The notes under the pieces were generated by a model that searched no databases, was not told the origin of the DNA, and saw only the letters and a program-made list of their open reading frames with translations. From the IMG/VR virus record IMGVR_UViG_3300005511_000096, positions 1-21,122 of that record: 21,122 nt of DNA, one strand, 5' to 3'. Both the position numbers and the translations under genes were made by a program. This stretch comes from a virus. This document shows positions 1,372 to 20,042 of the stretch, piece by piece (within the stretch, counting starts at the first letter, position 1; every line of letters begins with the position of its first letter).

Positions 1372-1733
1372 TCGCTTTCGCCGAGCGCCGCTTTGCGCTG
1401 AACATCGTCGGCAAGGACGGGGTGACGCATTTTGACCGGGTGAAAGCTCTGTTGAAGCGGACCCGGAATCCGGAGAAAAGGGCGAAGTTGGAGGCGGAAA
1501 TAAAGCTTCCGTCCTTTCCCCAACCTCTCGCCTATCTCTGGACAGCTTATCATCGCATCCGCCGCCGCAAGGGCGTCGGATTTGCCGGCCCCGAACCGAT
1601 CGGATGGTCGGATATTGAAGCCTTTAACCGCATGACGCGCATGCGGCTCGCCCCATGGGAAGTCGAGGTGATTGAAACCCTCGACAATCTCTACCTCGAT
1701 GCCAAGGAAACGGATCTAGACGACGATGGCTGA
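1323..1733 (+). CDS. Tail assembly chaperone, second frame (T-like, possibly made by -1 frameshift)
   Basis: The frame is open from 1275; the only start near the overlap is a TTG at 1323 with no ribosome binding site, so independent initiation is doubtful. The C-terminal half carries a 'GWSDIEAF' segment, then Arg-Met-Arg-Leu-x-Pro-Trp-Glu, then Leu-Asp-Asn-Leu-Tyr-Leu. This is the Trp-x-x-Ile ... Trp-Glu ... Leu-Asp-x-x-Tyr-Leu pattern of chaperone-type proteins encoded just before tape measures in Mu-like and siphoviral phages. It overlaps the preceding gene by 49 bases in the -1 frame and overlaps the tape measure start by 8 bases. The most likely product is a fusion with the preceding ORF. 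The alternative is a separate protein from the weak TTG. Confidence 0.65.
   Translation: MAGGRQGFYTALCDELIAFAERRFALNIVGKDGVTHFDRVKALLKRTRNPEKRAKLEAEIKLPSFPQPLAYLWTAYHRIRRRKGVGFAGPEPIGWSDIEAFNRMTRMRLAPWEVEVIETLDNLYLDAKETDLDDDG
1342..1348 (+). promoter_or_regulatory. Candidate -1 ribosomal slip site
   Basis: In the overlap of the two chaperone frames, the zero-frame codons GCT-TTT-ACA form GCTTTTA. The TTT codon at 1345-1347 can re-pair fully one base back on TTT at 1344-1346, which would move the ribosome into the frame ending at 1733. It is not a perfect X-XXY-YYZ heptamer, because the GCT codon would re-pair poorly on GGC. I saw no clear stimulatory stem just downstream. It is the best slip candidate seen in the shared open window 1275-1371. 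Confidence 0.35.
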
Positions 1734-4700
1734 TCAACGCGATCGCAAGATTGTCGAGCTTGTTATCGATGCCTCTGGCGTCGAGGCTGGCGAGCGCCGT
1801 GTGGCTCTCGCTTATGATCACCTCGGCGAGCGTGCCGCGGCTGCGCAGGCGAAGGCGACTGCTGCTATCCAGCAGTCAATGCGCATCTATGAAAACCAGC
1901 TGCCGCAGTCGATCGAGCGGACGGCTGCGGCTTATGACCGGCTCCGATCGAAGACTGATCCGGTTCTTGCTGCGCAGCTGAAGCTCGAATCCGAAATGAC
2001 GCGGTCCCTGCAGGTGATCAACCGCGCCGTCCTTCAGGGCGTTACGACCCAGCAGGAGGCTGAGCAGCAGGTTCTTCGTCTGCGTAACCAGCAGGTCGAG
2101 CAACTGGACAAGGTTCGTCTTGCGCATGAGCGACTGAACGAAGAGCAGAAAAAGGGCGCAAACGACAACTCTGCGCAGGGTCGCCGCCAGATCCTGGGCT
2201 ACCAGGCCTTCGACATAAGTCAAGGTATCGCATCAGGCACGCCGCTCAGCATAATTGCAGCGCAGCAAGGCCCGCAGATTGCCCAGCTATATGCGGGTCA
2301 AGGAGGCGTTAAAGCCGCTCTCAGCGATGTGGCCTCTGTCGCGACGATAGCCGTATCCAGCATCGGCGCACTGCCGCTTGCATTGGGTGCCGCCGGCGCA
2401 GCGGCGATCATGTACGCCAAGAGCAGCGAAACATCGCTGAAGAATGCCGACCAGCTGCTGCAACAGCATCAGGCCAACGTGAAAGCCCTGGCTGAAGCCT
2501 ATGGTGTGGCAGAACGCAGCGCGCGGTCCTATTCGAATGCGGACCGGGCTGTTTCGCGGGCATCGACGATTGGTAGCCTCGCCGAGCAGCAGAAGCTGCA
2601 GGTGCAGGCGGCGCGCGAGCTGCGCGAACAGTTCGGCACCATGCAGACCCCTGGCAAAGGCGGGCAGGCGTTCTTCAATCTCTCCCAAGATTACAAGCCG
2701 TTTGAGGACGCCTTCCGCGGGCTCGACAGCGGCATCCGCAGCGGGCGGATCGAGGGGGAGAAGTTCATTGATACGATCTCGGAAATCTCGAAGGTTAACC
2801 CTCAGTACGAGGAGTTTGGAAACAAAATCCTCAAGGCTGCCCAGCAGTTTCTGCAGATCAATACGGAGATCACAAAAACCAAGGATCTTCTGACGCAGAT
2901 CGGCACCTTGCCGCCGCTAGATCCGTTGGGCGTCTTCAGTCCCATTCGCGATGCACAGGCTCAGGCCGACCGGACGCCATCGCTCTTTCAGCAGCAGCAG
3001 AACCGCCTCGCGGCCATCAGGCAGGAGGCTGCTGCGCGCTCTCCAGCCGAGCGCGAGGCTGCGGCGCGCGCCTCCGCGGCTGCGCAGTTCAACGAGAGGG
3101 AAAGCACGACGGATCGCGACTACAGGATCGATCTCGCGGGCATACAAGCAAGAATTGCCGCCGAACATCAACTGCTGGAGGCGCAGCGCGATCGTGCGCA
3201 GAACATGCAGCGAATGGTGCAGGACCAGCAGACGGAAATCGACCTGATTGGCAAGACCGGCGGCGAAGTTGTCGCGCTGCGCAAGGAATATGAGCTGACT
3301 TCGGCGTTGCGTATCGAGGCGGCAAAAAATGGCGTCGACGTCGACCAATCCGAACTGGAGTTGATCCGCCAGAAGGCGCAGGAACTTGGCAAGCTGACCG
3401 ACGCCTATAACCGTGCCAAGCTGGCAAATGATCTGCAGTTCGAGCGCGAGCAAATCTTCCGTTCGTCTGAAGATCAGCAGATCGCCTCACGTCAGCGCGG
3501 AGCCGGCTTGCCGGTCGACCTGATGTCGCAGGAAGCGCAGGTGATGCGTGACAACATGCGGATTCAGGAACTGCGCGATGGCGTGCGCGGCTTCTTCACC
3601 GATTTCCGCGACGGATTGATGCAAGGTGACAGCATCGGCGAGGCGCTCGGTAATGCGATCCTGAACGCGCTCAACAATGTTCTAGCGAAGGTGACGGACC
3701 GGCTGTTCGAGCAGTTCGTCAATGCGATCGTTGGTACGGGGTCGAGCGGCGGACTGCTCGGCAGCCTGGGCATCGGTAAAATTGCAGCCAACGACAATTT
3801 CTCGGCCAATACAACGCTTGGAAAGCTTCTCGGTGCCGTAAACGACAACGTCGGGACGGCTCCGGTGACGCCCGTCACGCGCGCTCCTCTCGGCGATGTG
3901 GCCAGTTACATCGCGCAGGCGGCGACGCAGCGCGGGATCGACCCGAGCATCGCACTCGCTGTTGCTCGCTCTGAAGGTGGGCTGAGCAGTTGGAACCTGC
4001 AGTCCAACTATGTGAAGAACGGGGTGCGGGAAGCATCTTTTGGACCATTCCAGCTCTATAAGGGCGGCGGCCTTGGGAATGCCTTCATGTCGAAGACTGG
4101 ACTTGATCCGGCCATCGCCGCCAATGGTCCTGCCGGTATCGATTTCGCGCTCGACTATGCCTCCAAAAACGGCTGGGGCGCATGGTATGGGGCAGGCAAG
4201 GCTGGGATCAGCAAGTGGCAGGGGATCGGTGCTAACCAGAACATGGAAAGCGCCGCCGATGCGGTCAACAAGCTGAGCTCTTCTGCCGGCGTTGCCACCA
4301 AAGGTCTCGATGGCTTGGGTGGTGGACTCAGCAACATGGCGCCGGCCGTCAACACTGCTGCGCAGGGGTTGACCAATCTAGGTGGCGGCCTCGGCCAATT
4401 CTCCCAGCAGCTGGTGGCGGCGGCGAACGGCGCCAACAGTCCATCGAGCTTCCTTGGTAGCCTTGGTAGCCTATTCGGAGGCATTTCGCCGACGAGCTCG
4501 ATGTGGGCGCCGAATACGACGCTTGGCAGCTTCCTCATTCGCGGCTTTGCCGAAGGCACTGACTTCGCGCCTGGCGGCGTTGCAATGGTCGGGGAGCGCG
4601 GCCGTGAGCTGGTGAACCTGCCGCGCGGCTCGAAGGTGGTGCCGAATCAAAAAACCGAAGCATTGCTTTCCGGCGCCAGGAGCGCGGCGAATGTGAATGT

Positions 4701-4887
4701 GAATTTCAACGTGGTCAACAACAACGGGTCGAGCGTGAAAGCACAGCGGCGCGATACGAATGACGGGCTGCAGTTCGATGTCATTATCGACGAGGCCGTC
4801 GCCTCGAATCTGAGCACACCTGGAACGCGCTCGCGCCGTGCCGTGAAGTCGCAATTCGGTCTTTCGGAAGGCCTCGCACGTCGATGA
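1726..4887 (+). CDS. Tail length tape measure protein with internal lysozyme-like domain
   Basis: At 1053 residues this is the second-longest gene here and sits where tape measures sit. The N-terminal 180 residues are Ala/Gln/Arg-rich helix, followed by the segment 'FDISQGIASGTPLSIIAAQQ', characteristic of prophage tape measure proteins (TMP_2 type). A hydrophobic stretch lies near residues 202-229. Long coiled-coil-like helix covers about 290-630. Around residues 720-815 is a lytic-transglycosylase/lysozyme-like domain with Ser-Glu750-Gly-Gly and Ser-Phe-Gly-Pro-Phe-Gln776. The end has the usual Gly-Glu-Arg-Gly-x-Glu-x-Val-x-Leu-Pro-Arg-Gly-Ser pattern. It sets tail length, and the lysozyme-like part may help cell-wall passage of DNA. 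Its start overlaps the chaperone frame and its stop overlaps the next gene (ATGA). Confidence 0.93.
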   Translation: MADQRDRKIVELVIDASGVEAGERRVALAYDHLGERAAAAQAKATAAIQQSMRIYENQLPQSIERTAAAYDRLRSKTDPVLAAQLKLESEMTRSLQVINRAVLQGVTTQQEAEQQVLRLRNQQVEQLDKVRLAHERLNEEQKKGANDNSAQGRRQILGYQAFDISQGIASGTPLSIIAAQQGPQIAQLYAGQGGVKAALSDVASVATIAVSSIGALPLALGAAGAAAIMYAKSSETSLKNADQLLQQHQANVKALAEAYGVAERSARSYSNADRAVSRASTIGSLAEQQKLQVQAARELREQFGTMQTPGKGGQAFFNLSQDYKPFEDAFRGLDSGIRSGRIEGEKFIDTISEISKVNPQYEEFGNKILKAAQQFLQINTEITKTKDLLTQIGTLPPLDPLGVFSPIRDAQAQADRTPSLFQQQQNRLAAIRQEAAARSPAEREAAARASAAAQFNERESTTDRDYRIDLAGIQARIAAEHQLLEAQRDRAQNMQRMVQDQQTEIDLIGKTGGEVVALRKEYELTSALRIEAAKNGVDVDQSELELIRQKAQELGKLTDAYNRAKLANDLQFEREQIFRSSEDQQIASRQRGAGLPVDLMSQEAQVMRDNMRIQELRDGVRGFFTDFRDGLMQGDSIGEALGNAILNALNNVLAKVTDRLFEQFVNAIVGTGSSGGLLGSLGIGKIAANDNFSANTTLGKLLGAVNDNVGTAPVTPVTRAPLGDVASYIAQAATQRGIDPSIALAVARSEGGLSSWNLQSNYVKNGVREASFGPFQLYKGGGLGNAFMSKTGLDPAIAANGPAGIDFALDYASKNGWGAWYGAGKAGISKWQGIGANQNMESAADAVNKLSSSAGVATKGLDGLGGGLSNMAPAVNTAAQGLTNLGGGLGQFSQQLVAAANGANSPSSFLGSLGSLFGGISPTSSMWAPNTTLGSFLIRGFAEGTDFAPGGVAMVGERGRELVNLPRGSKVVPNQKTEALLSGARSAANVNVNFNVVNNNGSSVKAQRRDTNDGLQFDVIIDEAVASNLSTPGTRSRRAVKSQFGLSEGLARR

Positions 4888-6153: not shown

Positions 6154-9100
6154 ATGCAACTAGTATCGGCGCCGGCGCCGGTTGAGATCTTCGCGCCGGG
6201 CGAAGGCGTAGACGTTTATCTGCGTCGCTCGCCACTGCGCCAGCATCGCGAGCACATACGCGTGCCAGCCTGCCTTTCTGTCGCCGAGATCTTAGACTTT
6301 TGCGAAGTCGAGCCGTCGAGGCTGTACATCACGATCAACGGCCACTCGATCAACCGGGCAAACTGGCCGCGTGTGCGTGTCAAGGCTGGTGCCTCTGTCG
6401 CGATCGTGAGGGTGCCCGGCAAGGGGATGCTTAAGAGCATTCTTGGCGCCATTGTGTCGATAGCCGCGGCGATCTTTGCACCATACCTTCTCGGCGTGCT
6501 CGCGCCAGCCTTGGTCGGCACAGCTGCCGGCGCTGCGGTAACCGGTTTAATCGGTGCCGGTCTGACTGTCGCTGGCTCATTGGTGGTCAATGCTCTTTTC
6601 CCGGTTGCCAAGCCAAAACAGCAAGCGGCCGACAACACCAAGACGCTCTATTCCATTGGTGGCGCGCAAAACGAAAATTTGCAGTATGGCGCGGTGCCAG
6701 AAATCTTCGGCATCCACCGCATCTCGCCGCCAAAGGCAGCAGGCGACTACACCGAGATCGTGGGTAACGACCAGTACCTGCGGCAGCTTTTCTGTGTTGG
6801 CTATGGCCCGATCGACATAAGCGACCTCAAAATCGCTGAGACGCCGATCAGCACGTTCGAAGAAGCCTCCTATGAGATCATCACGAATCACCTGACGCAG
6901 TCTCCGACGCTTTACACCAAGCCGGTGTACGAGGAGAGCGTTTCCGTCCTGCTCGACAATCCCAGTGGATGGATTCAGCGCACGACAGCCGACAATATTG
7001 ACGAAATATCCGTCGACGTCAGCTTTCCAAACGGAGTCTATCGATACAGGAAGAAAGACGGCAATCGCGTCAACTACAACGTCAACATTGAGGTGCAGTA
7101 CGCCCCGGCGGGGACTGGTTCGTGGGTGTCAATGGGGCAGATTTCCGTATTGGCGGCCTCCGCGCAAGCGGTTAGGCAGTCGCGCTCCGTAGCGGTGGCG
7201 CGTGGCCAGTATGATGTGCGCCTTTGGAAATCATCGCCAGATTACGTTGGTGGCGATACCGTTTCTGAAACGGCCTATTGGACAGCTGTTCGTGGCCGCC
7301 GCAATGAGCCGGTTATCAGCTTCAGTAAGCCGCTGACACTGATCGCCTTGAGGATCAAGGCCACCAACGAGCTCAACGGGACGATCAGCCAGCTTAACTG
7401 CATCGTCAGCCCGCGTATCAGGTCATGGAATGGCGCCACATGGGTGTTCAACCAGACCACACGCAACCCAGCCGATCACTTCAGGCAGGTTCTGCAAGGT
7501 AACGCAAACGCTCGTCCTGTTGCGGATGCATCCATTGACCTGGAGAGCATTCAGGATTGGCACGCATACTGCGCGACGCAGGGCTTCACGTTCGATCTGG
7601 TGGCGGCCGATCAAGTGTCGGTCTACGACCGACTTACGCAAATCGCCGCAGCGGGTCGAGCTTCCGTTTCATTCCGGGATGGCAAGTGGGGTATTGTTTG
7701 GGATGTCGCGGGGTCCGACATTGTACAGCATTTCACGCCGCGCAATTCGTCCGGGTTCTCTTCGACAAGGGCATACGCGGATATGCCACACGGCTTCCGC
7801 GTGAACTTCATCAATCGGGACAACAACTATCTCAATGATGAGCGGGTTGTTTATGACGATGGATACACAGCAGCTAATGCGACCAAGTTTGAAGGGCTCG
7901 ATTTCCCTGGCGTTACGGACACCAAACTGATCTGGCGTCACGGACGTTATCAGATCGCGCAACTTCGCCTTCAGCGAGAATCTTATTCGCTGATGACCGA
8001 CTTCGAGCATCTGGTTTGCACCAGAGGCGATCGCGTCCGCGTCAATCATGACGTTGTGTTGTGGGGCCTCGGAGCGGCGCGCGTCAAGGCGGTCTCTGCG
8101 GGCGGCGTCACGCTCGACGATACGTTCTCGATGGAGAGCGGCAAGACATACTCGATGCGGTTCAGGCTGACTGACGGAACGTCACTGGTTCGCACCGTGG
8201 TAGGTGTCGATGGTGAATTCACCAACTTCACCTTCTCCGACACGGGCGCGTTGCCTGGGGTTGGGGATCTGGTGCAGTTCGGCGAGAATGGCACGGAGAG
8301 TGTCGTTCTTCGCGTCAAGAGCATCATGCCTCAATCTGACCTGTCGGCAAAACTGGAACTCGTCGATGATGCTCCGGCGATCTTGACGGCTGACACCGGG
8401 ACCATCCCACCGTTCCAGACAGGCATTCCAGCCCTGGTGGACTATCGCTCATTGAAGCCGACTGGGCTTGCGTCGGTAGAGAGCATCTGGACCACCAATC
8501 CGCCAACTTCTGCTGTCCGCATCTCGTGGCAGGCACCCCAGGGTGGCAAGGTTACTAGCTACATAGTCCAGTACGCACCCAAGGGTTCCGGCCTTTGGTA
8601 TCCGATCAATCAGGTGACCGTTGCTTACGCCGATCTGGTAGATCTGCCAGCCGGGGCTTACGATGTCAGGGTGCGCGCTGTTTTTGCCAACGACCAGTTG
8701 TCGGGATGGCTGTACGGTGTTGTCAGCGCGATAATATTCGCGACCCCCCCTCCAGATGTAACTGGCTTCAAGATTGCGGTAACCGGTGACTCGGCAACCT
8801 TTCAGTGGGACCCGATTGCCGCAGAGACTGGCATCTCTCACTACGAGATCAGGTACTCGCCTGTTCCGTCGCCGCTGGTGACGTGGCAAACCGCGTCTCT
8901 GTTGCGGTCGCCAATTGTCGGACAGCAGGTGCAACTGCCGCCGTTGCGCGGCACGTACCTGATCAAGGCTGTTAGCTTTTCTGGGCTTCGGTCACCCAAC
9001 CCGACAATCATTGTCAACACGATTGACGGACTGACAAGCTTCAACGCGGTCGAGGATGCAAACGAAGTGGCGCCATTCCCTGGCGTCAAAGACGGAACCT

Positions 9101-9801
9101 ATTTCGACGGCAGCACTCTGCGGCTCGATGTAAGCTCCGACTTTTTCGATCTCGCCGACTTTTTCGACCCGGCCGATTTCTTTCTATCTACGGAGGGGTA
9201 TCTGCCGTTTGGCTACTACTACTTTGAGGACGTCATCGACCTTGGTGACACCTACACCTCTCGCGTCTCGTCGGCGATCAATGCTTCCGGTGAGTGGTCT
9301 AGTGACGACTTCTTTTCACTTGAAGACGCATTCGGTCGGGCCGACTTCTTTGGTGATGTCGGCAGTCTTTGGAATACTCTTCTAGAGATGTCGATCACAG
9401 ATGACGATCCGTCCGGATCGCCGACATGGTCGAATTGGACCCCATTCGTGACCGGAGACATAGCCGCCAGAGGGTATAGGTTCCGCGCAAGGCTTGAGAC
9501 CTTGCAGGATGACCTAACGCCGATCGTGACCTCCATGGGCGTCTCGATCGACATGCCTGACAGAGTCGCGGCCGGCAATGACATCGCCGTTCCGCCTGGC
9601 GGGCTGACCGTGTCGTTTGATCCTGCCTACAAGCACCTGCAGGGCGTCTCGATCGCCGCGCAGGGCCTCGCGACTGGCGATTATTACCTGATCACGGCTA
9701 AAAACGAGGCCGGATTCCACATGGAGTTCAAGAACGCGGCCGGGACATCAATATCCCGAACGTTCGATTACGTTGCAAAAGGATACGGAGCCATTCAATG
9801 A
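6154..9801 (+). CDS. J-like tail-tip / host specificity protein
   Basis: The largest gene here (1215 residues), nine bases after the NlpC gene, with an AGGG ribosome binding site. The N-terminus resembles tail-tip proteins that start with a small beta domain followed by a hydrophobic stretch (about residues 90-150) and 'LYSIGGAQNENLQYGAVPEI', a segment typical of J-type central tail proteins. The middle is a long beta-rich region. Residues about 768-865 and 864-955 look like two fibronectin type III domains. Residues 996-1075 contain repeated Asp-Phe-Phe motifs. The C-terminus is Gly-rich. It would form the baseplate hub and central tip and contact the host receptor. Its stop overlaps the next start (ATGA). 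Confidence 0.9.
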   Translation: MQLVSAPAPVEIFAPGEGVDVYLRRSPLRQHREHIRVPACLSVAEILDFCEVEPSRLYITINGHSINRANWPRVRVKAGASVAIVRVPGKGMLKSILGAIVSIAAAIFAPYLLGVLAPALVGTAAGAAVTGLIGAGLTVAGSLVVNALFPVAKPKQQAADNTKTLYSIGGAQNENLQYGAVPEIFGIHRISPPKAAGDYTEIVGNDQYLRQLFCVGYGPIDISDLKIAETPISTFEEASYEIITNHLTQSPTLYTKPVYEESVSVLLDNPSGWIQRTTADNIDEISVDVSFPNGVYRYRKKDGNRVNYNVNIEVQYAPAGTGSWVSMGQISVLAASAQAVRQSRSVAVARGQYDVRLWKSSPDYVGGDTVSETAYWTAVRGRRNEPVISFSKPLTLIALRIKATNELNGTISQLNCIVSPRIRSWNGATWVFNQTTRNPADHFRQVLQGNANARPVADASIDLESIQDWHAYCATQGFTFDLVAADQVSVYDRLTQIAAAGRASVSFRDGKWGIVWDVAGSDIVQHFTPRNSSGFSSTRAYADMPHGFRVNFINRDNNYLNDERVVYDDGYTAANATKFEGLDFPGVTDTKLIWRHGRYQIAQLRLQRESYSLMTDFEHLVCTRGDRVRVNHDVVLWGLGAARVKAVSAGGVTLDDTFSMESGKTYSMRFRLTDGTSLVRTVVGVDGEFTNFTFSDTGALPGVGDLVQFGENGTESVVLRVKSIMPQSDLSAKLELVDDAPAILTADTGTIPPFQTGIPALVDYRSLKPTGLASVESIWTTNPPTSAVRISWQAPQGGKVTSYIVQYAPKGSGLWYPINQVTVAYADLVDLPAGAYDVRVRAVFANDQLSGWLYGVVSAIIFATPPPDVTGFKIAVTGDSATFQWDPIAAETGISHYEIRYSPVPSPLVTWQTASLLRSPIVGQQVQLPPLRGTYLIKAVSFSGLRSPNPTIIVNTIDGLTSFNAVEDANEVAPFPGVKDGTYFDGSTLRLDVSSDFFDLADFFDPADFFLSTEGYLPFGYYYFEDVIDLGDTYTSRVSSAINASGEWSSDDFFSLEDAFGRADFFGDVGSLWNTLLEMSITDDDPSGSPTWSNWTPFVTGDIAARGYRFRARLETLQDDLTPIVTSMGVSIDMPDRVAAGNDIAVPPGGLTVSFDPAYKHLQGVSIAAQGLATGDYYLITAKNEAGFHMEFKNAAGTSISRTFDYVAKGYGAIQ

Positions 9802-11658: not shown

Positions 11659-12312
11659 ATGAACCGATCGCAATTCTTTGCGGCTGTCCGAACCTCTGTG
11701 TTCGGCGGATCGCTGGCCCAGTCTCAGGTCGCCGGCATCGAAGCTATCCTTGATGGGTGTGCAACCGAGCAAGTCGCAGATCAGCGCCACGTCGCCTACA
11801 TCCTCGCCACGCCGATGATCGAGACGGGCGGTACATATCTGCCGATCGTTGAAAACCTGAACTACAGCGCTCAGGGCCTCGTCAGGACGTTCGGCAAATA
11901 CTTCTCCAATAAAGACGCGGCAGCCTATGCCAAGCAGCCCCAGCGCATCGCCAACCGCGCCTATGCCAACCGCATGGGGAACGGGGATGAGGCTTCAGGC
12001 GATGGGTGGAGATTCCGTGGCCGCGGCTTATGCCAGATTACAGGCCACGACAACTATGCCAAGTTCGCGCGGTTGCTTGGGGTCGATCTCGTCGGCAATC
12101 CGGATCTCGCGCTGCATCCTGACATCGCCGGCAAGATCATTGTCGTCGGCATGCGAGATGGCCTGTTCACCGGGAAGGCGCTGCGCGACTTTTTCACCAG
12201 CGGTTCATCGGATTGGGTGAACGCTCGCAAGATTATCAATAGCCTCGATCGTGCTGCCGATATCGCTCGGTATGGCAAGCTCTTCGACGCCGCCCTGCAG
12301 GATGCCGCCTGA
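11659..12312 (+). CDS. Endolysin, GH19 chitinase/lysozyme-like
   Basis: 217 residues with a GGAG ribosome binding site. Glycoside hydrolase 19 features are visible: Ile-Glu55-Thr-Gly-Gly with the first catalytic acid, then 'ANRMGNGDEASGDGWRFRGR' containing the second acid Glu111, followed by Gly-Leu-Cys-Gln-Ile-Thr-Gly and Asn-Tyr. Phage GH19 enzymes cut the glycan strands of peptidoglycan at lysis. There is no signal peptide or N-terminal anchor, so export would rely on a holin. The next gene, coupled by a one-base overlap, encodes a small two-helix membrane protein. A cell-wall binding domain is not obvious, and the length is standard for single-domain GH19 endolysins. Confidence 0.92.
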   Translation: MNRSQFFAAVRTSVFGGSLAQSQVAGIEAILDGCATEQVADQRHVAYILATPMIETGGTYLPIVENLNYSAQGLVRTFGKYFSNKDAAAYAKQPQRIANRAYANRMGNGDEASGDGWRFRGRGLCQITGHDNYAKFARLLGVDLVGNPDLALHPDIAGKIIVVGMRDGLFTGKALRDFFTSGSSDWVNARKIINSLDRAADIARYGKLFDAALQDAA

Positions 12313-12662
12313 TGTCTCGCCGGGCAGAAGCCAAGCCCAGCGGCGAACCAGGCTGGCAGTGGCGGAAGGCAGCGATCTTCCCGAACCTCATCATCTCATT
12401 CTGGTTCATCTACGTGCTGATCGGTTCTCAGGATACGCGGGTAAACGAGACGATCGCATGGGGCCTGATCGTGAACATCATCGCGTCGGTGTTCTTTTAC
12501 ACCGGCTTTGCGACCGCCCAGGATATCGCGGCGATCTTCGCGACCCGAACTGGGCTTCCCTACGCCACGCCACCGGTAGCTGTCGATGGCGAGCCGATTG
12601 GACCGGAGCCGTATGCTCCGCCGGCCGAACCCTATGACGTCCGCGATCAAGGAGTGCGCTGA
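12312..12662 (+). CDS. Two-helix membrane protein, candidate holin
   Basis: 116 residues, start overlapping the endolysin stop by one base. A basic N-terminus precedes a hydrophobic helix ('AIFPNLIISFWFIYVLIGS'), a short polar turn and a second helix ('TIAWGLIVNIIASVFFYTGF'). A Pro/Glu-rich soluble tail of about 45 residues closes the protein. Size, two membrane segments and the place between endolysin and spanin genes fit a holin. There is no family motif to prove it, so it could also be another lysis-cassette membrane protein. Ribosomes finishing the endolysin would readily restart here. Confidence 0.65.
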   Translation: MSRRAEAKPSGEPGWQWRKAAIFPNLIISFWFIYVLIGSQDTRVNETIAWGLIVNIIASVFFYTGFATAQDIAAIFATRTGLPYATPPVAVDGEPIGPEPYAPPAEPYDVRDQGVR

Positions 12663-13180
12663 TGAGTGCTGTTCTCGCCGCCATAGCGCGCCTTATCGGG
12701 ATCGGCGGTGTGCTCTTCGTTGGGCTGCTGCTCTACGAGGAAGGCATTCCCGGTGCTGCCCGCATCCGAATCCCGGACGCCGTGCCGCTGGTCGGCGGCT
12801 TCGGGCTCGTCGACGTGCCTGTCATCGGCGATCTCACGGCCGGCCGGGTGAAGACCTACGCGGCCGAACAGGTGAAGATCGCGACGGCCGCGGCAAAGGC
12901 GGTCTGCGACGGAAAGCTGGAAAAGATGGTTTCCGGCTACGAGCTGGCAGCGGCGAAGGCCGAAATCGCCGAGTTGGAGCGCCAGCGCAACGCGGCGGCA
13001 CAGGTGCTCGAGGATTACCGGAAGCGGGCGCGGGCCGACCAGCAATCACTACAGGTGGCACATGAAAAGCTTGAGCGTGCGATCGCCGAGGATGTTGGCG
13101 ACGATGGCGGCCGTTGGACTGATGTTGACCAGCGCTGGATGCAAGACCACAGAGGAAGAAAGGCAAGCCCGGGCCGATAA
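12662..13180 (+). CDS. Inner-membrane spanin-like protein (Rz-like)
   Basis: 172 residues, AGGAG seven bases before the ATG, and one-base overlap with the preceding gene. A hydrophobic N-terminal segment (about residues 4-25) is followed by a short Pro/Gly-rich linker. Then comes an Ala/Glu/Lys-rich coiled coil (roughly residues 70-140) with 'AAAKAEIAELERQRNAAAQV'. This is the architecture of Rz i-spanins: N-terminal anchor plus periplasmic helix. A second gene with a lipoprotein signal begins inside its 3' part in another frame, the classic spanin arrangement. It would join inner and outer membranes at the last step of lysis. Confidence 0.75.
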   Translation: MSAVLAAIARLIGIGGVLFVGLLLYEEGIPGAARIRIPDAVPLVGGFGLVDVPVIGDLTAGRVKTYAAEQVKIATAAAKAVCDGKLEKMVSGYELAAAKAEIAELERQRNAAAQVLEDYRKRARADQQSLQVAHEKLERAIAEDVGDDGGRWTDVDQRWMQDHRGRKASPGR

Positions 13181-13376
13181 GGCCGCCGCGGCCGTCGGCC
13201 GGCTGGCCGTGCGTCCGCAGAAGCCGGAACTGCCGGCTGAATGCCGCACCGAGATGGGCCGGGCCTATCCGCAGGTCAACGAGAAATACAGAGCGACCCA
13301 GTTGCGCTGGGAATACCTCGCCGATGTCGAGGATGCCGTGAAGCAGCGCTGCGCGGCCTTTTACGACGCGAGCTGA
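13062..13376 (+). CDS. Outer-membrane spanin-like lipoprotein (Rz1-like), frame-overlapping
   Basis: 104 residues starting inside the Rz-like gene in another frame; 119 bases are shared. The N-terminus has basic residues (Lys2, Arg7, Arg10), a hydrophobic core and a Thr-Ser-Ala-Gly-Cys27 signal that resembles a lipobox, although Ser at -3 is not the usual Leu. The mature part is soluble, with Pro-Glu-Leu-Pro and two more Cys residues (near 61 and 97). It is longer than lambda Rz1, like several o-spanins from rhizobial phages. It is expected to be lipidated, sit in the outer membrane and bind the i-spanin. AGGTGG lies close upstream of the ATG. Confidence 0.75.
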   Translation: MKSLSVRSPRMLATMAAVGLMLTSAGCKTTEEERQARADKAAAAVGRLAVRPQKPELPAECRTEMGRAYPQVNEKYRATQLRWEYLADVEDAVKQRCAAFYDAS

Positions 13377-13437: not shown

Positions 13438-13770
13438 ATGGCTATCACCGGTGCTCATGTGCAATGCGGCTACGTCAAGGATGTCCGCGGGGCCAAATTG
13501 TTCTTCCCGATCTGGTCGGAGACGATCGCGCTTGCATCGAGCACGACGCAGGTCGCGCCGACGCTTGCGGCGCCTGAAGATGCGGCTTCGCTGGTGTTTC
13601 GTGTCCGTGCGCCCGCCAGCGGCGAAATGTTCTCGGCGGCCGGGCTGGCTCCAGATGCCAGCGTGGCGATCGGATCTGCGCAGAATACCGCGAGATCGCA
13701 TCACGTGGCGAGCGAGGAAAAGGACATCCCAGCCCAGGCCGGCTGGAAGTGCAATGTGGTGAGCGCCTAA
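13438..13770 (+). CDS. Small phage protein of unknown function upstream of the fusion gene
   Basis: 110 residues with a good AGGAG ribosome binding site. The sequence is beta-prone with many Ala, Ser and Val, contains two Cys residues (near positions 10 and 105), and has no membrane helix or signal peptide. I do not recognise a family. Its stop is one base before the ATG of the next gene, which has no clear ribosome binding site of its own, so the two are probably coupled. Partnership with the 857-residue protein as a small capping, linker or chaperone subunit is plausible from context only. Confidence 0.7.
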   Translation: MAITGAHVQCGYVKDVRGAKLFFPIWSETIALASSTTQVAPTLAAPEDAASLVFRVRAPASGEMFSAAGLAPDASVAIGSAQNTARSHHVASEEKDIPAQAGWKCNVVSA

Positions 13771-13771
13771 C

Positions 13772-16345
13772 ATGGCCGGCGTTGCGACGAGACTTGCCAA
13801 TATTCGCGGGCTGGCGAAGACGGTCAACAAGACCGTCGATCGCCGACCATTTTCGCGCAGCGGAGGCGGCGGCACGCCGTCGCTGCCAAATTTCACATTC
13901 CAATCAGAGACAACCGCCCTGGAAGCCGCTCGCGCAGGCCAGGGCGTCACCATGTCGCGCCGCCAGAAGTACCACTATGACAGGCTCGTCCGCATCATCA
14001 AGGATGCGGGGGCCTCCATGTCCGACGCTTTGTCCCTGTACTCCGCCTCGTTCGCGACCACGGAACCAACGTCTCGGCTCAATCTATTCCACCCAGGCAC
14101 CAATGACCTGACACTTACGGGGGCGGGCACGCCCACCTTTACGGCCAATGATCGGTGGGGCGGCTGGTCGAGTACCGCGAAGTACAATACCGGGATAGGG
14201 CTTCAGACCTTCACCCAGGGCGAATTCACCATCTTTTATTATTCCAGGACCGTCGCTGGCGCGTCAGGTGGTGATTTCGGCGCTCAAACGGCTTCTGGCG
14301 ACGGCATCGCGGCGAATGTCCGTGATGCCAGCAACAAGTTCAATGGCCGGTTTCAGAGCGCCAATTACGCATCCACCTCAACAGCTTTCCTCGGCCAGGG
14401 AATGCACTGCATTACGTCCGACTCCATAGACACGTTCGGTTTCTCGCGCGAGACGCCCTCGGTCACCTACGTTGCCCCATCGACCAACCCCACAATCCAC
14501 CTCGGTGGCATCAATGGTGGCGCCGTGTCGTCGCATGACTGCGGCCTCTTCGCCATCTTCAAGGTCAAACTCACGCCGGCGCAGCGGATACGCATCAGCG
14601 CGGCCCTCTTGGATTTCTACGAGAAGGGCCGCTTCGGCTTCATGGATGTCTATGAGGCAGGCTACGCGCCTCAGTACCTCTCGTACGACGTGGTTGTCTA
14701 CGGTGGTAGCTGGACCGCAGTCTGTGCAGCCTATGCCGCCAAGCAGGCAGGCAAGACGGTTTGCATCGTGTGCGACGACTTCGTGAAGACGGACTGGGGT
14801 GTCGCCGGTATGCCGACGCAGGGCCTCGCCTACATGGACTGCTACGCCTTCACTGCGTGTAAGGGTCTATGGAGGGACCTCACCTCCTGGGCCAACACAG
14901 CCATCTATGGGCGAGCCGACGCGAACAACCAAGCGACCAACTCCCTGGAGAGCCGTGTGTTCCAACAGGGCGTCCGCCGCATGCTGGACCCCACGAAGAC
15001 CAACGGTGCGCTCATCCTCGGGCAGGACATCCCCGTCTACTTCTCGACTGGCATCGCCCAGATCAAGACCAACGTGGCTGGCGACGTGGATCAGGTCCTG
15101 GTCACCAATGACGGCAGAGAGTTCACCGGCTCTATCTTCATCGGGGCAGACTACGATGGTGAATATGTCTACAAGTCTGGCCTCCCGTACATCATTGGGT
15201 CCGAAGCTTCTGGCGCCGGCTCCGAGCAGTACAACGGCTACCTGGGAGCAACCCAGATACTCAAGCCGTACACCACCTACGACATCGACCCTTACATCGT
15301 GGCGGGCAACCCAGCATCGGGCCTCCTGCCTGATATCCAGGGCACTCTGCCCCTCCCAGGGCTGACCCTGAACGGCCCTGACCCGTCGCTGGAGTCGATG
15401 AACTTCCGCTGGGCAATGACGACCATCGAGACCCGTAAGGCCTACCTCTCGCAGTTCGATCCGGGCCGCAACAGGAATGCCTTGAGGTACGAGACCTGTG
15501 CTCGCCTCTACGTCCAGAAGACGGATGTTACCATCTCCGACCCGTCCAACACCCAGACCATCCTTCAGTTCGTGGTCGGCCCGACGGCTGGCATCGTGGA
15601 CGTGAACAATGGCTCCGGGGGTCTCTCGACGGACCTTGGTAGCAGCGGCTACAACTACGCCCACGCGGCTGACCGCGCAGGCCAGCATGCGGTGGCCGAC
15701 GACATCAGGGACTACCAGCTTGGTTGGTGGGATTGGCACTCCTACTCGGGAGACAGCCGCATCCCCTCGACGCTGGTCACTCAGTTCCGAGCCCTCCAGC
15801 CGGATGCCGCAAGCTTCCTGGATGCTGGACCGGGAGAGCTGCTGTTCGTGCCCTCCAGGCCGTACCAGCGTGACCCCGTGTGGCAGTTGAAGAATGACGG
15901 CTACGTGTCCAGTGGTTCCGACTACGCTCGCACGGATGGCACCGCACCAAGGTCCCTCAAGACCGTGGCGGTTACCTCCTACGACAGCGATAGGCACCGC
16001 CCCTGGAAGGTCGTCTCTGGCGGCCTGCTCTACAGCCAAGGGGGTGTCCCCGAGGTCGTAGCTGGTGTTGACAAGATGGCACCTATCCCTCTGGAAGCTA
16101 TCGTGCCAGACAAGGCGCGTAAGAAGAATGTGATCATCCCCTGGGCATCGTCCAGCACGAAGATTGCATGGTTCATGGAGCGGCTGGAGCTTACGGGTGG
16201 CCTCAAGGGAGAGGCGGCTGGCGTCATCGCCGCCGCTGCCATTGACGCTGCTGTTGCCGTTCAGGACGTGGACTACGATAACGTCATCAGGCCCAACCTG
16301 TCGGCCCGGGATGTCAACCATCCCTACCTGCCGCAGGTGGCTTAA
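13772..16345 (+). CDS. Phage appendage protein fused to a FAD-dependent oxidoreductase-like domain
   Basis: 857 residues, starting one base after the previous stop. Residues 1-85 are basic and helical. About 88-290 look like a concanavalin/LamG-type phage appendage domain: 'DRWGGWSSTAKYNTG' followed by strands, closing with 'FAIFKVKLTPAQRIRISAAL'. From Tyr305 a Rossmann fold begins ('YDVVVYGGSWTAVCAAYAAK', then Gly-Lys-Thr-Val-Cys-Ile-Val), followed by Gly-Met-Pro-Thr-Gln-Gly-Leu. Near 543 is Met-Asn-Phe-Arg-Trp. The end has 'YSQGGVPEVVAGVDKMAPIP', Ile-Pro-Leu-Glu-Ala-Ile-Val-Pro and Gly-Glu-Ala-Ala-Gly. These match the FAD_oxidored-type flavoproteins end to end. The usual third Gly of the dinucleotide motif is Ala316. 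AGG Arg codons seem commoner in the C-terminal half (about eight by eye), a weak sign of separate origin. Substrate unknown. Confidence 0.8.
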   Translation: MAGVATRLANIRGLAKTVNKTVDRRPFSRSGGGGTPSLPNFTFQSETTALEAARAGQGVTMSRRQKYHYDRLVRIIKDAGASMSDALSLYSASFATTEPTSRLNLFHPGTNDLTLTGAGTPTFTANDRWGGWSSTAKYNTGIGLQTFTQGEFTIFYYSRTVAGASGGDFGAQTASGDGIAANVRDASNKFNGRFQSANYASTSTAFLGQGMHCITSDSIDTFGFSRETPSVTYVAPSTNPTIHLGGINGGAVSSHDCGLFAIFKVKLTPAQRIRISAALLDFYEKGRFGFMDVYEAGYAPQYLSYDVVVYGGSWTAVCAAYAAKQAGKTVCIVCDDFVKTDWGVAGMPTQGLAYMDCYAFTACKGLWRDLTSWANTAIYGRADANNQATNSLESRVFQQGVRRMLDPTKTNGALILGQDIPVYFSTGIAQIKTNVAGDVDQVLVTNDGREFTGSIFIGADYDGEYVYKSGLPYIIGSEASGAGSEQYNGYLGATQILKPYTTYDIDPYIVAGNPASGLLPDIQGTLPLPGLTLNGPDPSLESMNFRWAMTTIETRKAYLSQFDPGRNRNALRYETCARLYVQKTDVTISDPSNTQTILQFVVGPTAGIVDVNNGSGGLSTDLGSSGYNYAHAADRAGQHAVADDIRDYQLGWWDWHSYSGDSRIPSTLVTQFRALQPDAASFLDAGPGELLFVPSRPYQRDPVWQLKNDGYVSSGSDYARTDGTAPRSLKTVAVTSYDSDRHRPWKVVSGGLLYSQGGVPEVVAGVDKMAPIPLEAIVPDKARKKNVIIPWASSSTKIAWFMERLELTGGLKGEAAGVIAAAAIDAAVAVQDVDYDNVIRPNLSARDVNHPYLPQVA

Positions 16346-18993: not shown

Positions 18994-20042
18994 ATGACAA
19001 AGCCGCCCCGCAAGTCTTCGAAACCGCTGCTGCGTGAAACAGATACTCCTATCCGCAGCGCGCCTCGCCGCCGGCGCGACCCCTCCCAACCAAGCCTTCC
19101 CCTTGACCCTATGCCTGCGCGCATCGAGCCGTGCCTTGCGCTGCTCAAAGCGAGGCCGCCGAAGGGCGACGGCTGGGTCTATGAAATCAAATGGGACGGT
19201 ACCGGCTGGCGGTGCACATCGAGCCCGCCGGCGTGCGCATCCTGACGCGCGGCGGCCATGACTGGACGCATCGCTTTCCGGAGATCGAGCAGGCAGCCAA
19301 AAGCCTTCCCGTCGCCACGGCGATCCTCGACGGCGAGGCGGTCGTTCTCGACGAACTGGGCCGGTCGGACTTCGGGCTGTTGCAGCAAAGCCTCGGCGGT
19401 CGCGGCGGCAAGAAGACCTCCCACGAATCCATCCTGATGGCCTTTGACCTTCTCTATTTCGATGGACATGATCTGACGCGCATGGACCTGAGCGAGCGCC
19501 GGCACATCCTCGAGGATCTCCTCGACGATGCTGCCGGCGCCGTCCGTTTGTCGGAAGAGATCGAAGCCGACGGCGACCAGCTGCTGGCAAGCGCCTGCGC
19601 TCACGGCCTCGAAGGCCTCATCGCCAAGCGCAGAGATGCGCCTTATCGATCCGGCCGGATTGGCGACTGGCTGAAAATCAAATGCATCCAAAGCGACAGT
19701 TTCTTCATCGTCGGCTACGAGATATCGATGGCGGCGCGCGGCCATATTGGCGCACTGCTGCTCGCCGCTCGTAGGGGTGACGACCTGGTCTATGTCGGCT
19801 CGGTCGGGACGGGCTTCAAGGACAGCGTCGCCTGGAAGCTGCGTGGAATGATGGACAGGATCAAGCGAAAGACGCCGCCGATCCAGTATGCTGGTCGACG
19901 GAATGATGTCGTCTGGTTGCGGCCGACGCTGATCGCCGAGATCGAATATCGAGCCTGGACCGACGACCGCAAGCTACGCCATTCGTCCTTCAAGGGGCTT
20001 CGCCAGGTGCAGGACAATGCGGCGGTTTATCAGCTGGGATAG
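18994..20042 (+). pseudogene. LigD-type ATP-dependent DNA ligase, frameshifted
   Basis: The first frame (18994 to about 19199) encodes a basic leader with 'RIEPCLALLKARPPKGDGWV', then Glu-Ile-Lys66-Trp-Asp-Gly, the nucleophile motif of ATP-dependent ligases. The expected next residues, Tyr-Arg-Leu-Ala-Val-His-Ile-Glu, continue in another frame from 19200: one base is missing in the glycine codon. The second frame to 20042 keeps 'LDGEAVVLDE', 'FDLLYFDGHDL', 'GLEGLIAKRRDAPYRSGR', Trp-Leu-Lys-Ile-Lys and an OB-fold end. The polymerase and phosphoesterase domains of full LigD are absent, so this would be a stand-alone non-homologous end-joining ligase of about 349 residues. The ATG at 19191 opens the second frame but lacks the nucleophile lysine. 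Either a true pseudogene or a sequencing error. Confidence 0.85.

Follow-up and report, generated by a model that had tools for sequence, protein, structure and literature searches.

A single open reading frame in a stretch of viral DNA raises the question of what a flavoprotein-like domain might do when it is fused to a phage-type lectin-like module. The stretch analysed here, referred to as the window, comprises 21,122 nucleotides (IMG/VR virus record IMGVR_UViG_3300005511_000096, positions 1 to 21,122). The fusion gene lies at 13772-16345 on the plus strand, as do all window features placed below upstream of it or within it, and encodes a leader, a LamG-like module and an FAD_oxidored domain in 857 codons, with an ATG start and zero internal stops.

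The fusion gene and its relatives

The original prediction, made from the letters alone, was that one frame unites a LamG/concanavalin-like region with a flavoprotein region. This was borne out, with the two modules at residues ~37-295 and 306-838. The motifs it quoted are present (YDVVVYGG at 305-312, NFR at 544-546, GGVPEVVAG and IPLEAIVP), and its assignment to the FAD_oxidored family was upheld by a near-full-length match to PF12831 (E 2.9e-26; 93.2 bits, cut-off 27; residues 306-838), which covers profile positions 1-412 of 416. The Pfam search of the window protein returned no domain except PF12831, an SGNH/GDSL hydrolase domain being absent, and searches of PHROGs and NCBIfam gave no match; the N-terminal ~300 residues searched alone also matched nothing in Pfam or PHROGs.

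An assembly artefact joining two genes was ruled out by recurrence of the fusion in complete phage genomes and in isolate genomes. The search of other phages for the same fusion, proposed at the outset, found the full-length LamG-FAD architecture by tblastn in three of 50,697 phage records, all of them complete Rhizobium phages, an unannotated fecal fragment matching the end of the FAD domain only. IMG/VR scans recovered the full-length fusion in ~14 further contigs, and it sits in prophages of the Rhizobium species genomes G001, G790 and G836. Full-length identity is 63-79% for close homologues and 25-30% for the others. Among 11 window-type homologues the median dN/dS came to 0.117 (LamG part) and 0.107 (FAD part); at ~0.11 in each, both halves of the fusion are kept up by selection. 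Two damaged copies were also seen in Rhizobium prophages, namely a frameshifted second fusion copy (G790:C1:2741357-2743916) and a copy with an internal deletion (G881:C1:4389889-4391266). The records IMGVR_UViG_2842363717_000001 and _000002 (L062, L002) come from the same IMG genome and hold one LamG-FAD fusion each, with differing leaders.

The window carries genes for a tape measure protein (1726-4887; phrog_19914, E 7.6e-102) and the tail tip protein J (6154-9801; phrog_31, E 8.5e-140; FNIII-A_GpJ). The predicted location downstream of a lysis cassette was confirmed, an endolysin and a spanin-like pair preceding the fusion gene. The endolysin gene (11659-12312; phrog_181, E 2.5e-61) is followed by three genes that gave no family match or were judged on their sequence: a small membrane protein that is a possible holin by position and sequence (12312-12662, no family match), an inner-membrane spanin candidate recognised by position and overlap (12662-13180, no family match), and an outer-membrane spanin candidate with the lipobox LTSAGC, whose gene overlaps the preceding one (13062-13376). 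A 110-aa gene (13438-13770) stops 1 base before the fusion ATG, and the two are probably translationally coupled; small genes precede the equivalent position, here called the slot, in several relatives too. Downstream of the fusion, the window holds a gene with an ATP-dependent DNA ligase domain (19191-20042; DNA_ligase_A_M and A_C, LigD-like), and DNA ligase-related genes also follow the slot in L003, L007, L066, L092, L103 and L104. In several prophages a 192-aa/129-aa gene pair lies downstream of the slot (L093 9181-10145, L098 8179-9143, L099 8165-9129); judged by eye, it is possibly a toxin-antitoxin pair of the Doc/Fic type.

Leaders and exchangeable bodies

The leader (residues 1-36, 13772-13879) is a candidate virion anchor. 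A LamG-GH30-like protein encoded by prophage L091 (G832) has a leader similar to it (E 4e-19; 77% identity over 31 aa). The LamG/concanavalin-like module that follows (residues ~37-295, 13880-14656, its N-terminal part helical) was delimited by structure and profile matches: the AlphaFold model shows a jellyroll that matches phage ConA-like/LamG proteins in BFVD, and a profile search with the module recovered phiM12 gp398, RHEph08 gp59 and Cp1R7A-A1 gp202 (E 1e-17 to 1e-19). From its fold, the module is a putative lectin for a host surface glycan. The Sinorhizobium phage phiM12 gp398 has a related LamG module and a GDSL domain and adjoins a lysozyme-like gene; it differs from the window protein in that its LamG module is C-terminal and its enzyme is an esterase.

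Comparison of closely related phages showed that the body of the slot gene is exchanged whole. The DNA of Y55 and RHEph04 is 92-96% identical on both sides of the slot gene, whereas within it only the first ~40 bases (~13 codons) are alignable and the bodies are then wholly unlike: LamG-FAD_oxidored in Y55, and in RHEph04, as in Y17, an SGNH esterase (phrog_8480, E 1.5e-166; "lysophospholipase L1-like esterase" in RefSeq). The slot of RHph_N17 (L107 3629-5752) holds a BNR_4 propeller (E 2.9e-13) with a C-terminal LamG module, and this unannotated protein is a candidate glycan-active appendage. A 97-aa upstream gene is conserved across Y55, RHEph04, Y17 and N17. A second swap pair is formed by I72 and TM26, which carry FAD_oxidored and an SGNH esterase of the RHEph04 family, respectively, in an equivalent slot.

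The same pattern was found among leaders. The L091 protein that shares the window leader is encoded after a spanin gene and consists of a LamG module (E 1e-17) and a GH30-like C-terminal end, the latter assigned from one weak PDB match (E 2e-4 over 60 residues). Leader C, which occupies this post-spanin slot too, precedes an SGNH-type esterase in L104 (phrog_8480, E 1.5e-98) and a weak SGNH-type match in L098 and L099. Leader class shows no link to FAD subtype, the other leaders pairing with differing FAD subtypes. Since leaders are shared across unlike bodies, leader and body are inherited separately. On sequence comparison the arrangement is that of a conserved N-terminal anchor with an exchangeable effector, as in receptor-binding proteins, where an N-terminal anchor carries interchangeable specificity modules (PMC8262889). 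The window protein resembles such modular depolymerases in its conserved N-terminal anchor and exchangeable C-terminal module, but has no beta-helix or lyase fold, and its middle module is lectin-like. The earlier idea of a surface-directed phage protein is backed by the shared leaders and by the exchange of bodies with those of SGNH esterase, GH30-like and BNR proteins.

The slot is empty in two prophages with a related tail module, so the slot gene is dispensable for that tail. Moreover, the fusion gene of the lytic phage N3_19 lies directly upstream of the portal gene, and those of the lytic phages I72 and Y55 lie between portal or head-morphogenesis genes and major head genes; from these neighbours, the appendage may be on the head rather than the tail. 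Both observations would fit a plain structural or decoration protein that takes no part in recognising host glycans, its swaps being neutral shuffling. We consider this very unlikely, because every swap partner has a carbohydrate- or ester-active fold and because whole-body swaps inside otherwise 92-96% identical genomes point to diversifying selection.

The flavoprotein-like domain

The FAD_oxidored domain (residues 306-838, 14687-16285) is defined by the Pfam profile and the predicted fold. The fold prediction suggested for the C-terminal half agreed with the family assignment: in the AlphaFold model of the whole protein (pTM 0.76, mean pLDDT 65.9), residues 299-849 form a two-dinucleotide-binding flavoprotein fold, with a structural match to urocanate reductase (VIA Z 17.6, rmsd 3.0 over 218 residues). 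Modelled alone, the domain reached pTM 0.78 and Z ~16 to GidA/MnmG, thioredoxin reductase and urocanate reductase; each of the two models has several low-confidence stretches within the flavin domain. Single-sequence and profile searches of the PDB gave no FAD_oxidored relative of known structure, and a cellular FAD_oxidored member searched against the PDB gave generic dinucleotide-domain matches only.

The nearest cellular clade (100/100) consists of secreted Rhizobiaceae PF12831 members of the L018-L020 type. They are homologous to the phage protein over the full domain and have in common with it a core of Y698, R700, D740, H742, R804 and E806; they differ in being stand-alone proteins with export signals, whereas the phage members are LamG-fused, and the window subtype has altered residues at the cofactor site. 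Sixteen Rhizobiaceae sequences served as the cellular reference, and 63 of their 96 near-invariant columns are kept in the window protein, those lost including H797, R477, D458 and G364. Throughout the window subtype R477, H797 and D458 are changed, G364 is replaced by lysine (G364K), and DASYEGDL becomes [GAS]ADYDGEY. The beta-alpha-beta dinucleotide motif, located by alignment at residues 306-336 (14687-14779), has an invariant G311 in this subtype, and in most members alanine replaces the third glycine of GxGxxG; in the window protein it reads G-G-S-W-T-A, with Asp335 one place past the canonical acid. Invariant columns number 9 of 33 in the dinucleotide segment and 244 of 478 in the rest of the domain.

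Given the weakened dinucleotide motif and the loss of residues invariant in cellular proteins, reuse of the fold for binding is possible. In its full form this reading makes the window subtype a pseudoenzyme, a fold without catalysis and perhaps without FAD that serves solely as a receptor-binding scaffold of the virion; the altered dinucleotide sequence, the substitutions common to every window-type member and the lower conservation of the segment all speak for it. We nevertheless judge it unlikely, although less so than the other alternatives considered. Purifying selection is strong, and R546, Y698, R700, D740, H742, R804 and E806 are invariant in the subtype without exception; Asp740 and His742 belong to an SYxxDxH motif (residues 736-742, 15977-15997) and are conserved in the cellular relatives as well as in the LamG-fusion phage ones. 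A near-canonical GAGPAS occurs in L065, L068 and L073, which are members of the same subtype, and with L065 and L068 left out invariance in the segment rises to 20 of 33. The N3_19- and I72-type proteins retain most family-invariant residues, and the histidine changed in the window type is still present in them and in 3 of 4 FAD proteins on or adjacent to tail fibres. The argument that an enzyme lacking the acidic residue must be dead was dropped, as the closest secreted cellular homologues also have no acidic residue after beta-2. Because of this, and of GAGPAS in three members, the window subtype may still bind the cofactor. Redox activity is plausible for the PF12831 family and putative for the window subtype, whose domain may work as a redox enzyme or be a fold repurposed for binding.

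Placement on the particle and proposed role

FAD_oxidored domains also occur on tail fibres. P0014 (L047, and L076 in IMG/VR; 1356 aa) combines a tail-fibre N-terminus, a GDSL/SGNH esterase (PF13472, E 7e-18) and FAD_oxidored (E 5.9e-46), and the gene for its relative in L077 lies immediately after J. P0015 (L048, L075; 665 aa) is an FAD_oxidored protein encoded downstream of J, and an IMG/VR scan with P0016 gave no match. In L049 a tail-fibre gene with a terminal LamG module is followed, with a one-base overlap, by a stand-alone FAD_oxidored gene; this pair is an unfused form of the window architecture. The maximum-likelihood tree placed the FAD domains of LamG fusions together (85/80), beside the secreted stand-alone Rhizobiaceae proteins (100/100), and tail-fibre FAD domains elsewhere, the placement of P15 and P16 being unsure owing to long branches; its strongly supported branches demand that the domain was recruited at least twice. 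One gene by a tail fibre, in G146, was rejected as a prophage moron, a close homologue in G054 lying amid ordinary chromosomal genes; at this locus (L053 877-6556) the gene for the secreted FAD_oxidored protein has genes for a tail-collar-like fibre and a DNA adenine methylase close by.

These fibre-borne domains bear on whether the fusion protein is part of the particle at all. In temperate relatives the fusion gene comes after the endolysin and spanin genes, and the product could be a soluble or periplasmic late enzyme, co-expressed with the lysis genes, that is either freed at lysis or takes part in lysogenic conversion, acting on the host envelope or the environment. Leader class B contains an RR-hydrophobic stretch, and the cellular homologues bear twin-arginine-like (Tat-like) export signals, consistent with export in a folded, cofactor-loaded state. 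Two Rhizobium prophages have acyltransferase-3 genes close to the slot (L091 2235-3386, L093 2579-3619), which possibly serve O-acetylation of surface polysaccharide by lysogens. Against this, a signal-peptide core is missing from the window leader, the lytic phages encode the protein among head genes, FAD domains are joined to tail-fibre N-termini or encoded after J, and LamG modules, like the cadherin-like repeats that stand before the LamG-FAD part in L064, are typical of appendages. A location off the particle is thus improbable in our estimation.

With moderate confidence, we favour an exchangeable, glycan-directed virion-appendage cassette of rhizobial phages with a flavoprotein-fold effector. 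The protein probably recognises or chemically trims Rhizobium surface polysaccharide. The short leader would anchor it to the particle, the LamG/ConA-like module would bind a host surface glycan, and the C-terminal domain would modify or recognise that glycan, as the flavoprotein equivalent of the SGNH deacetylases and glycosidases in the same slot of sister phages. FAD would be loaded in the cytoplasm and the protein would leave with the virion at lysis, the presumed chemistry being oxidation of a sugar residue. We hold only tentatively, and with some doubt, to the stricter version in which a virion-borne flavoenzyme, recruited at least twice and swapped with esterases and glycosidases, oxidises a sugar of host exopolysaccharide, capsule or lipopolysaccharide.

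The E. coli phage G7C gp63.1 is reportedly a receptor-binding protein with an SGNH hydrolase. This protein and its Klebsiella counterparts resemble the window protein as modular appendages with a non-depolymerising, glycan-modifying enzyme, and SGNH proteins fill the very same slot in RHEph04, Y17, TM26 and L104; the window effector differs in its flavoprotein fold, which would carry out a redox reaction instead of hydrolysing an ester. The SGNH receptor-binding enzymes of Klebsiella temperate phages are a precedent for a surface enzyme that modifies instead of cutting, in a paper that makes no mention of an oxidoreductase (PMC13123978). Among the proteins with the full-length LamG-FAD architecture, RHph_I72 QIG76482.1 and RHph_Y55 QIG68875.1 (25-28% identity) are encoded in the head gene region and annotated by domain only ("FAD dependent oxidoreductase"), and the literature searched held no analysis of either. 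An FAD-dependent oxidoreductase has been named in phiM9 (PMC10783043); it was absent from the tblastn matches and so probably belongs to another family. In the literature searched, PF12831 was seldom named, a flavoprotein was never linked to a phage tail, no report of sugar oxidation by a phage appendage was found, and a flavoprotein fold as effector of a modular glycan-active phage appendage was undescribed.

To our knowledge, phage appendages that act on polysaccharides either cut them, as hydrolases and lyases, or deacylate them. If a flavin redox fold works in this slot, it would be a third chemistry for attack on the host surface, and the proposed role, if true, would give PF12831 proteins a testable function. 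Whether the slot plays a part in host range can be tested directly on two natural pairs, Y55/RHEph04 and I72/TM26.
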